In this document: in pieces, positions 25,785-53,801 of the stretch | Position numbering within the stretch: position 1 is the stretch's first letter | How the letters are laid out: every line of letters starts with the position of its first letter | From: an uncultured Methylococcaceae bacterium | GTDB lineage: Bacteria > Pseudomonadota > Gammaproteobacteria > Methylococcales > Methylomonadaceae | NCBI GenBank assembly: GCA_903938485.1 | Contig: CAJADF010000049.1 | Location: 20,544 to 84,543 of the forward strand | Length of the DNA: 64,000 nucleotides | Reading direction: 5' to 3' | Position numbers and translations under genes: made by a program | Notes under the pieces: generated by a model | Told to the model about the DNA's origin: nothing | Seen by the model: the letters and a program-made list of their open reading frames with translations, nothing else | The model's database searches: none

Positions 25785-26816
25785 ATGACAATTAGCTTAA
25801 TACTGACAACTCTATTGCTGACAATTGGCTTCATTTTTGCTTTAAGACCTTTAGCTATCAAGATAGGTTTCTTCGATCACCCTGACGAAAGAAAACAACA
25901 TACTAATCCAACCCCACCCATTGGGGGATTAGCCATCTTTTTAGGCTGTCTATTACCATTATCGCTATTCGATATACACTTACCTCAAAATTATGCTTTT
26001 ATAGGTGCAATCAGTTTATTAGTATTAGTGGGTTTAATTGATGATCATCGGACGCTAACGGTAAAAACTCGCTTATCGGCACAAATCATAGCGGCGCTTA
26101 TCATGACTGAATTAGCCGATGTCAGAATTACAGAACTTGGCGATTTAGTCGGTACAGGCACTATTCATTTAGGTAAATATTCTACCTTAATGACTATTTT
26201 TGCTGTTGTCGGAGGAATTAACGCCTTCAATATGATAGATGGTATTGATGGCTTATCAAGTAGTTCGGCACTCTTATCAATTGGAATAATGACAATTTTA
26301 GCCGCATTCTTCGGTAACGATTCAATTTTAAATCTTGGCTTGATATTTATTGGGGCTTTAAGCGCTTTTCTATGTTTTAACTTACGCGCATTTGGTCGCA
26401 AAAAAGCGGCCATATTCTTAGGTGACTCCGGTAGTACCTTAGTTGGATTTGTAGTTTGTTGGCTGATTATCAAAGGTTCTCAAGGTCAAAATACGCTAAT
26501 TTCACCCACACTAGTTTTATGGGTGATTGCCCTGCCCTTATTCGACTCTATCTGTATAATGATGCGTCGCCTACACAAAGGCAAATCACCCTTTGCTCCC
26601 GATCGTGAGCATTTACATCACCTACTGCCCATGAAAGGATTTAGTGTTAATGAAACTTTGATTATCATATTAACACTTTCTACCATACTATCTTTCACAG
26701 CCATAATAGCAAGCTTATTTTTCAACATCAGCGACAAGATTTTATTTGCCACTTTTTTACTTTGTTTCTGCTTATTTTATGGTTTTATGCATAAAACGAT
26801 CAACGCAGACACTTAA
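25785..26816 (+). CDS. wecA: Undecaprenyl-phosphate GlcNAc-1-phosphate transferase (WecA-like)
   Basis: Glycosyltransferase family 4 membrane enzyme that loads a sugar-1-phosphate on undecaprenyl phosphate, the first step of O-antigen, common antigen or EPS synthesis. About 10-11 membrane segments; motifs DHPDERKQH, the LIDDHRTL Asp pair, NAFNMIDGIDGLSS, FLGDSGSTLVGF and the cytosolic DREHLHHLL. 343 aa is normal. It may initiate the polymer exported by the genes at 13-18 kb, though no other glycosyltransferase lies in the window. Its stop codon overlaps the end of the convergent 44-aa gene. Confidence 0.92.
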   Translation: MTISLILTTLLLTIGFIFALRPLAIKIGFFDHPDERKQHTNPTPPIGGLAIFLGCLLPLSLFDIHLPQNYAFIGAISLLVLVGLIDDHRTLTVKTRLSAQIIAALIMTELADVRITELGDLVGTGTIHLGKYSTLMTIFAVVGGINAFNMIDGIDGLSSSSALLSIGIMTILAAFFGNDSILNLGLIFIGALSAFLCFNLRAFGRKKAAIFLGDSGSTLVGFVVCWLIIKGSQGQNTLISPTLVLWVIALPLFDSICIMMRRLHKGKSPFAPDREHLHHLLPMKGFSVNETLIIILTLSTILSFTAIIASLFFNISDKILFATFLLCFCLFYGFMHKTINADT

Positions 26817-26947
26817 GCACAAGAAGGGTGCTTAATCATATTTTTTAATACATATACAATTTGTTCAACTGGTTTTCTTTTGTAGTGACGCATTATTTCA
26901 TTCACTTTGTTACTCACTTGATCGTGCATATGAATTTTATGTTGCAT
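26813..26947 (-). CDS. 44-aa protein of unrecognised family, lexA operon member
   Basis: Short gene missed by usual length cut-offs. It begins MQHKIHMHDQVSNKVNEIM and ends MIKHPSCA; AGGAG lies just upstream of the ATG at 26947. It starts 36 bases after the lexA stop on the same strand, so it should be co-transcribed with lexA. A paralogue at 51886-52020 has exactly the same length and 20 of 44 identical residues (H3, K4, H6, M7, D9, Q10, N13, V15, I18, M19, Y22, K23, K25, P26, E28, Q29 among them) and heads the cho operon. The product is basic, helical, without membrane segment. Function is unknown; an SOS role is inferred only from operon position. Confidence 0.8.
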   Translation of the reverse strand: MQHKIHMHDQVSNKVNEIMRHYKRKPVEQIVYVLKNMIKHPSCA

Positions 26948-26983
26948 GGTATTTCTCCTAGTATTAAAAATTAATTTACACAG

Positions 26984-27637: not shown

Positions 27638-27688
27638 ATCTTATCAAGTTAATTTCAAAAAGCAAGAAAAAGAGAACAAAAAGAAAAC
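27638..27688 (-). promoter_or_regulatory. lexA promoter with candidate LexA operator
   Basis: On the lexA strand, a direct repeat GTTTTCTTTTT followed at once by GTTCTCTTTTT (11-bp period, one mismatch) and then CTTGC occupies 27688 down to 27662. It overlaps a -35 (TTGCTT, 27660-27665), with a 16-base spacer and a -10 (TAAGAT, 27638-27643). The same 27 bases and the same spacing occur at 52045-52095. The repeat fits the GTTC-N7-GTTC box known for alphaproteobacterial LexA with one mismatch; no E. coli type CTGT-N8-ACAG box was seen. Function is inferred. Confidence 0.7.
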
Positions 27689-51885: not shown

Positions 51886-52020
51886 TTAAGCCGGAACAGA
51901 GTGATGAAATAGGTGTTTCACAAAATGTCTTAATTGCTCACAAGGCTTTTTCTTATAAGCGTTCATGATATCTTGCACTTGGTTAAAAGCTTGATCTCGC
52001 ATGTGTACTTTATGTTTCAT
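51886..52020 (-). CDS. 44-aa protein of unrecognised family, cho operon leader
   Basis: Paralogue of the 44-aa gene after lexA. It begins MKHKVHMRDQAFNQVQDIM and ends FHHSVPA. AGGAG lies 6 bases before ATG 52020; an in-frame ATG at 52026 is too close to it. It has the same length and 20 of 44 identical residues; the shared core is H-K-x-H-M-x-D-Q, I-M, Y-K-x-K-P and E-Q. It precedes the Cho-like gene by 69 bases and follows the shared promoter element. Basic, His-rich, no membrane segment. Unknown function; a small SOS effector, toxin or cell-division regulator is possible. Confidence 0.8.
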   Translation of the reverse strand: MKHKVHMRDQAFNQVQDIMNAYKKKPCEQLRHFVKHLFHHSVPA

Positions 52021-52044
52021 TTTCATCTCCTTTTTGTTTCTATA

Positions 52045-52095
52045 AGTTTATCGCAATTACTTTAAAATGCAAGAAAAAGAGAACAAAAAGAAAAC
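52045..52095 (-). promoter_or_regulatory. cho-operon promoter with candidate LexA operator
   Basis: The 27 bases at 52069-52095 are identical to 27662-27688 before lexA. On the minus strand the repeat pair (GTTTTCTTTTT, GTTCTCTTTTT) runs into a -35 (TTGCAT, 52067-52072), a 16-base spacer and a -10 (TAAACT, 52045-52050). Geometry equals that at lexA although the sequences beyond the 27 bases differ, so the identity reflects function rather than a recent copied segment. Confidence 0.7.
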
Positions 52096-53117: not shown

Positions 53118-53801
53118 ATGAGCACTAATCATCAAAAAGCCATCACTCTATTAGCAACGCTAATAACACTTACTGCGACACAAGCTGAAGCTCAACGAAT
53201 CGGCCCCAGAGGACCAACCGGCCCACAAGGTATTCAAGGAGCTACGGGTCCGCAAGGTAATCAAGGTGAACAAGGTGCTACTGGCCCTTCAGGCTCCACA
53301 GGAGCAACCGGTTCGACTGGACCTACAGGAGCTACAGGCCCAATTGGAGAGACGGGAGCAACCGGCGCAACTGGTCCAGCAGCCCAACAGGGATGGATTT
53401 ATTTAACCAGTCAAGATGGAAGCACACTCCCAGCAAGCTTCACTCAAATTACAGCAGGGGGAACGCTTTCATTTGATACTGGACAAATTAAAGCTACCAG
53501 TGATGGTGTTTATCAATTTAATTATACAATTGATCTAAGTTCTGATCCGTTTCAACCGCAATGCTCAGTCTATCTAACTAAGAATGCGACTACAATTCCA
53601 GGATCACAGAAGAACGCTAGTAACTTTTTCATTGGTCCCGGTGGTGGTAACAATAATTTAACTAATACAATGATGATAAGCCTATTAAATGGTGAAAGCG
53701 TATCACTAACTACAAATTGCTTTTCGAGCTCAGGCGATCCAAATGTAGCTGCTATTCAGTTTTCTGCCATACAAGTTGGTTCGACACTGCCACCAAATTG
53801 A
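53118..53801 (+). CDS. Secreted collagen-like protein
   Basis: 227 aa. A signal peptide ([12 protein letters not shown] hydrophobic stretch ending TQAEA) is followed by about 20 uninterrupted Gly-X-Y triplets ([19 protein letters not shown] and on; many GAT and GPT) and a C-terminal domain of about 135 aa resembling the C1q/BclA jelly-roll ([46 protein letters not shown]). Collagen-like proteins trimerise and act as surface fibres. It may share the transcript of the barrel gene before it and ends at a hairpin. Confidence 0.85.

Follow-up and report, generated by a model that had tools for sequence, protein, structure and literature searches.

Two related 44-residue ORFs next to lexA and a cho-like gene

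The window analysed here is a stretch of 64,000 nucleotides of contig CAJADF010000049.1 from an uncultured Methylococcaceae bacterium (order Methylococcales, assembly GCA_903938485.1), whose genome comprises 2.51 Mb in 134 contigs and is estimated to be 99.95% complete. It carries two ORFs of 44 codons, ORF1 and ORF2, located directly behind lexA and in front of a cho-like gene, respectively (Table 1). The first-pass annotation had placed the two genes at these positions, with 20 of 44 residues identical and a good ribosome binding site at both, and all of this was confirmed, the site being AGGAG in each case; BLASTP gave an E-value of 1e-13 for the pair, as calculated for that single comparison. 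An alternative ATG of ORF2 at 52026, two codons earlier, would yield a protein of 46 aa. We prefer the 44-aa start because a GGAG sequence abuts the earlier ATG, while it lies 6 nt from the start of the 44-aa frame. No other member of the family was detected in this genome at an E-value of 10 or better.

The cho-like gene begins with a TTG codon 69 nt past the end of ORF2, and excinuclease Cho is the best NCBIfam match of its DnaQ-exonuclease/GIY-YIG product, with a score below the model's cut-off. On the other side of ORF1 lies a convergent gene of the glycosyltransferase-4 family (25785-26816, + strand), whose end overlaps the ORF1 stop by 4 bp (26813-26816). Near the ORF2 locus, an ORF of 227 aa with collagen-like GPxGPQG repeats occupies positions 53118-53801.

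Table 1. Features of the lexA-ORF1 and ORF2-cho loci in window coordinates.
Feature	Position	Strand	Evidence or remark
ORF1, 44-aa family member directly 3' of lexA	26813..26947	-	ATG start, 36 nt past lexA stop
AGGAG ribosome binding site of ORF1	26955..26959	-	sequence
lexA, 206 aa	26984..27604	-	TIGR00498, PF00717 and PF01726 matches
Predicted LexA-type operator GTTTTCTTTTTGTTCTC 5' of lexA-ORF1	27672..27688 (contig C49 48215-48231)	-	motif match
cho-like gene, DnaQ-type exonuclease + GIY-YIG nuclease, 456 aa	50446..51816	-	family matches
ORF2, 44-aa family member 5' of cho	51886..52020	-	sequence, identity to ORF1, dN/dS
AGGAG ribosome binding site of ORF2	52027..52031	-	sequence
Predicted LexA-type operator GTTTTCTTTTTGTTCTC 5' of ORF2-cho, 58 nt before ORF2 ATG	52079..52095 (contig C49 72622-72638)	-	motif match

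A new family of small proteins in Methylococcales

Neither ORF gave a convincing match in Pfam, NCBIfam or PHROGs (the NCBIfam search covered these two window proteins and the PHROGs search six proteins, with a best E-value of 0.091). Only chance matches were returned by a sequence search of the PDB (best E-value 0.59), and when Pfam was searched with 53 members of the transmembrane (TM) type the best match, at 0.012 in one member, was also due to chance. Protein searches yielded 359 and 208 homologous proteins at an E-value of 0.01 or better, and the best 120 of each set were devoid of Pfam domains. One homologue (P0008) is labelled 'predicted nucleic acid-binding Zn ribbon protein', an assignment that no Pfam domain supports. 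Nothing on the family was found in the literature on lexA and the SOS response of methanotrophs or on small proteins encoded 3' of lexA, a search that covered few subscription papers. The family is new, in that we found neither a family model nor a solved structure nor a paper for it. The first-pass annotation had also expected both genes to be missed by length cut-offs, which is partly wrong, since some members are present in RefSeq as hypothetical proteins.

A two-row profile detected the family in 107 of the 301 Methylococcales genomes searched, with up to four members per genome; among 151 genomes that are at least 90% complete, a 30-row profile detected it in 55. Carriers among 61 loci include Methylobacter psychrophilus, Methylovulum miyakonense, M. 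psychrotolerans and Methylotuvimicrobium buryatense, as well as Methyloprofundus and Bathymodiolus symbionts. Two plasmids bear members, and none was found in the phage records searched. In a sample of the class, 9 of 369 genomes matched, two of them from the same family as the window and seven from other orders, one match being weak (E-value 9.9e-4), and in a sample of 397 genomes of the phylum the window's genome was the only match. One Methylobacter psychrophilus genome (G100) has three lexA copies, each followed by a member (L045, L046 and L019). Divergent members that lack an operator, 51-63 aa long, occur at five loci (L052, L055, L060, L066 and L071), and the same purine-synthesis-like gene lies near L066 and L071, which belong to two genomes.

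We then looked at selection on the coding sequence. On alignments of 44-aa members from hand-picked groups, the median dN/dS (Nei-Gojobori) was 0.166 for lexA/umu-type pairs (145 of 210 pairs, 65 being dropped for unusable dS) and 0.162 for cho-type pairs (43 of 45, two dropped), values that are rough because dS is near saturation. Most changes between members fall on codon position 3. GGAG-like ribosome binding sites and gene position recur across the family's loci. Homologues are thus at hand in related genomes, frame-shifting changes were not found, and these alignments indicate that purifying selection acts on the family protein.

The family is linked to lexA, cho and umuD

Among the 151 genomes sampled, 73 contain a lexA of the window's type (88 genes, E-value below 1e-60), and the profile detected a member 3' of 60 of these 88 genes, on the same strand and at a distance of 21-128 nt (median 38 nt). 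Counted by genome, 54 have both lexA and a member, one has a member only, and 19, all of genus g5, have lexA without a profile match. In that genus, 19 of the 20 lexA loci sampled had no linked profile match. Nineteen of the 28 genes that lacked a match were read, and in 15 of these 19 a divergent ORF of the same plan lies directly after lexA, with 49-50 aa, an HMRDQ-type head and a hydrophobic end. Profile comparison related this g5 type to the TM type at an E-value of 7e-7; the corresponding values were 1.6e-22 for the soluble type against the TM type and 3.7e-12 for the out-of-order type.

Gene context was counted for 102 members, which were extracted from their loci with a head-motif profile and are weighted to the window's genus. 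Sixty-four follow lexA and 15 have cho downstream, ten of the latter preceding cho without lexA and five, which have both, sitting between lexA and cho. A divergent umuD is found at 100-413 nt from eight members that do not follow lexA, and within 1 kb of lexA, again divergent, at 21 lexA-linked loci. The arrangement seen most often has lexA and the small gene but no cho within the sequence examined. The first-pass annotation had proposed a new small-protein family tied to both SOS operons of the window and had asked whether homologues follow lexA, cho or other repair genes. Related genomes do carry members, often beside lexA, cho or umuD; naming two operons was right for lexA and cho but too narrow, for there are also members in divergent orientation to umuD, members borne by two plasmids and members in a few gammaproteobacteria that do not belong to the order.

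As read from gene order, the recurring unit is umuD / operator / lexA - small gene - (cho), which is incomplete in different ways in different lineages. In the window's genome this unit is split in three, lexA-ORF1, ORF2-cho and umuDC, with the same 17-bp operator at each. The ORF2 promoter resembles that of lexA, and ORF2-cho therefore likely arose from a lexA promoter that was copied together with the small gene. Two of the out-of-order members follow a lexA, and at L012 an intact member has been retained behind a lexA remnant. The plasmid of Methylotuvimicrobium alcaliphilum 20Z (L221, NC_016108.1, 3447-4144) has a member divergent from umuD, and a plasmid of Methylobacter sp. YRD-M1 (L222, NZ_CP091426.1, 1510-4150) a umuC-umuD / lexA-member unit.

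A predicted LexA operator precedes lexA and many members

The motif shared by the regions upstream of lexA is GTTCTCTTTTTGTTCTC (67 sites in 60 promoters), which has the form of a direct repeat, GTTCTC-N5-GTTCTC (GTTC-N7-GTTC). The operator of the window's lineage is thus a direct repeat and not the E. coli palindrome; the Caulobacter SOS box is given as GTTCN7GTTC in the relevant part of PMC9578287. Our assignment of the motif as an operator rests on its position before lexA, and the sites are predicted ones. In the window's genome the exact 17-mer occurs in three copies, before lexA-ORF1, ORF2-cho and umuDC, and nowhere else among the matches; the zero-mismatch pattern gave five matches, namely these three of exact consensus, one inside a gene (L106) and one at L110. 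Allowing one mismatch was uninformative in this genome (39 matches compared with 58 for the reversed control).

We scored 99 loci (883,500 strand positions) with a matrix and found 92 sites of at least 19 bits, a threshold chosen after a first operator scoring had been seen. Of these sites, 69 lie at most 200 nt from a lexA start and 21 at most 200 nt from the start of a member; the remaining two are 321 and 384 nt from a member (L012 and L038), and there was none elsewhere. This site census replaced a control with random windows from the same loci, 3-5% of which scored as high, with operators among them. As the matrix was trained on the lexA promoters of these very loci, only the members that are not behind lexA provide an independent test, and 20 of these 37 have an operator within 200 nt upstream. 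The other 17 have none within that distance; they comprise the two at 321 and 384 nt and 15 members without any site, including the cho-linked L049 and L051 and the paralogues L060, L066 and L071. Members lacking a site may not belong to the regulon, or a different repressor may control them. Outside the order, all five members that are not next to lexA have an operator 67-115 nt upstream. At L012 (about 1640-1960) and L038 (2608-3133), intact members lie 321 and 384 nt behind an operator, and the gap at L012 holds the lexA remnant.

Taken together, the operators and the operon position suggest that members are repressed by LexA and induced in the SOS response, and we consider it almost certain that the family belongs to the SOS regulon as predicted from these sites.

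A conserved head is joined to exchangeable C-terminal helices

The 102 members measure 34-66 aa, the 34-aa copy being truncated. The motif M-x-D-Q is present near the N-terminus in 101 of them and H-M-x-D-Q in 90, a conservation that is partly circular because the search profile was built on the head motif. The head consensus reads HMxDQVxN[KR]VxxIM, and the head is amphipathic in 50 of 53 members, judging by helix prediction and heptad-like spacing. Past residue 22, the sequences split into two kinds, with either a hydrophobic helix or a basic amphipathic one. Outside the window's genus (g1), a hydrophobic segment exceeds the hydropathy threshold in 33 of 46 members; inside it only 3 of 56 have such a segment, ORF1 and ORF2 being without one, and the usual ending is a basic amphipathic helix. 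Members of the hydrophobic type often end in GVYW or GVVW; G44 and W47 hardly vary across an alignment of 53 members. In the soluble type, all 53 members analysed have a C-terminal helix above the usual lipid-binding score, and 44 of them outscore 95% of their own shuffles; these members had been filtered by score and length, and the best 18-residue window was picked by a score that favours charge.

The hydrophobic C-terminal helix is likely transmembrane, and membrane association of the family as a whole is likely on these predictions. Positive residues before the hydrophobic segment suggest that the head is cytosolic. The helix lies at or close to the C-terminal end of the protein, no Pfam domain was matched, and there is neither an extracellular C-terminal domain nor a LysM domain. 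AlphaFold2 models of two proteins, one per type, show a single long helix (pLDDT 76 and 81) and carry no fold information. On a LexA tree the type of anchor changes at least 4-5 times, as counted on a quick tree of 62 rows in which the amphipathic label means no more than the lack of a hydrophobic segment. The simplest reading of this pattern would be that membrane attachment is kept while its means changes.

Comparison with known SOS proteins

The sulA gene takes the slot after lexA in some gammaproteobacteria. Its product in E. coli is SOS-induced, as the family is predicted to be, and an analogy with SulA made in the first-pass annotation stands as regards position and regulation. It does not extend to the proteins, since neither ORF1 nor ORF2 matches PF03846 (SulA) even at an E-value of 10; the family proteins are a third of the size of SulA and their residues differ. 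SulA (PF03846) was not found in the window's genome either. In the order, PF03846 matches occur in 11 of 101 genomes, nine of them over the cut-off. We read four of these loci (L136-L139) and rejected SulA at all four: by eye, an ImuB-like frame follows the PF03846 match, and two of the four proteins pass the SulA cut-off by a narrow margin. These four of the 11 matches are taken as ImuA because of the ImuB-like frame, and PF03846 is known to catch ImuA as well (PMC9578287, in part). The four loci are lexA-imuA-imuB-like clusters or similar, and in several genomes a second LexA, 33-38% identical, lies alongside.

SosA of Staphylococcus, YneA of Bacillus and ChiZ are likewise small, adjacent to lexA, LexA-controlled (here predicted), lineage-specific and unrelated in sequence across phyla (parts of PMC6851548 and PMC13396833). 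In SosA and YneA the TM helix is N-terminal and an extracellular part is present; in the family, the head comes first and the protein stops at the helix or just past it. No sequence relation of SosA, YneA or ChiZ to the family was found, and the window's genus generally lacks the TM helix.

The Caulobacter gene sidA is not known to belong to the lexA operon. SidA and DidA are, like the family proteins, very small; they are induced by DNA damage, as is predicted for the family, and have a single TM helix, SidA being a 29-aa inner-membrane protein and DidA having 71 aa (PMC4211646, in part). The comparison with SidA, which had also been made at first pass, is the closer one: a single TM helix is predicted in most relatives outside the window's genus, but it is absent from ORF1 and ORF2. 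The family further differs from SidA and DidA by the conserved head before the helix, by the exchangeable anchor and by its multiple copies linked to lexA, cho and umuD.

TisB and DinQ are small, hydrophobic, SOS-induced membrane toxins, whereas the family members keep a conserved polar head. ImpC is linked to umuD-type genes, and none of DinI, ImpC and DdrR is known to have a membrane anchor. These three are, like the family, small SOS proteins linked to umuD-type genes (for DdrR, PMC11332147, in part). By kind, then, the family resembles the lexA-linked SOS inhibitors; its build, with a conserved head, an exchangeable anchor and copies across SOS operons, differs from theirs.

Candidate function and alternatives

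We propose, with a probability of about 0.45, that the family protein halts cell division, as SosA, YneA and SidA do. Anchored SOS proteins encoded next to lexA and unrelated across phyla are typically division inhibitors, and a block of division is therefore the most likely function. That lexA neighbours of unrelated sequence with one TM helix act in this way is usual (PMC6851548, in part). The proposal comes from the gene neighbours and not from homology, and the division machinery as the target is a guess. DNA damage would lead to RecA-assisted cleavage of LexA, whose loss would de-repress lexA-ORF1 and ORF2-cho (and umuDC). The peptides would gather at the inner face of the cytoplasmic membrane via the C-terminal helix, and the conserved N-terminal head would contact a membrane-bound divisome component so that septation waits, with shut-off once LexA recovers. 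YneA binds FtsW through its TM helix (PMC13396833, in part). YneA recognises its target with this helix; in the family, conservation lies in the head and the TM helix is replaceable, so the mode of action would be a different one. A division role is favoured by the absence of SulA from the window's genome and by the ImuA-like nature of the four PF03846 matches read in the order. Against it stand the lack of a TM segment in ORF1 and ORF2, whose basic amphipathic helix could instead bind nucleic acid or protein, and the several copies per genome with their umuD and cho partnership, which are atypical of known division inhibitors.

Other functions have to be weighed against this one. The peptide might adjust the SOS switch itself, its head binding RecA, LexA or UmuD and altering cleavage or the activity of polymerase V in the manner of DinI/ImpC or DdrR, an explanation that we regard as unlikely but that stays in play because umuD and lexA are so close by. 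Both are constant neighbours (eight members are divergent from umuD and 21 lexA-linked loci have a divergent umuD), the plasmid copies accompany umuD or umuCD-lexA, and conservation is concentrated in the head, which is presumably cytosolic. Moreover, DinI (PF06183) is absent from all 61 genomes of the order sampled, and the niche is therefore open. Comparable small proteins are known elsewhere, DdrR being a corepressor with UmuDAb in another lineage (PMC11332147, in part) and GIL01 encoding one that affects LexA (PMC9700832, in part). A membrane-binding or transmembrane tail would be unexpected in a modulator of RecA or LexA, however, neither ORF1 nor ORF2 matches DinI, and the five out-of-order members that adjoin neither a window-type lexA nor, among the frames listed, umuD have kept the operator. 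The small size, the hydrophobic or amphipathic basic helices and the SOS-type operators would also fit a membrane-active peptide of the TisB/DinQ kind, which lowers the membrane potential and promotes dormancy. This we hold to be rather improbable: the ribosome binding sites are strong and conserved, 35-40 nt behind lexA, co-transcription with the autoregulated lexA would imply basal toxicity, and conservation sits in the N-terminal head and not in the hydrophobic part. A structured leader with an antisense RNA is the hallmark of TisB and DinQ.

The ten members before cho without lexA and the five between lexA and cho could speak for an accessory of the linked repair enzymes, such as a protein that tethers Cho or UmuC to the membrane or stabilises it. 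We give this little credence, as lexA with the small gene and no cho is the commonest arrangement (64 lexA-linked members, five with cho) and members without lexA, cho or umuD keep the operator. That the ORFs are mere leader or spacer sequences, as their small size could suggest, is highly implausible in view of a dN/dS of about 0.16, the bias to codon position 3, the conserved start and ribosome binding site, and a family that spans genera and plasmids.

Returning to the division checkpoint, we put forward as a more tentative extension that the family may represent SOS effectors of a new class, portable peptides delivered to the membrane. The head of such a peptide would be the active part and its anchor interchangeable; with one copy per SOS operon (lexA, cho, umuD), the dose of the checkpoint would track the opening of the regulon, and plasmids would carry it together with mutagenesis genes.

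The operator set defines a compact SOS regulon with a LexA box of the alphaproteobacterial type, by which chromosomal and plasmid umuD-lexA units are recognisable. The cultured carriers, Methylotuvimicrobium buryatense and alcaliphilum, Methylovulum and Methylobacter, make the checkpoint testable, and the swap between TM and amphipathic anchors on one conserved head would uncouple location from activity in a very small effector. In a methanotroph order without a free-standing SulA among the matches examined, the family is a candidate SOS checkpoint protein.
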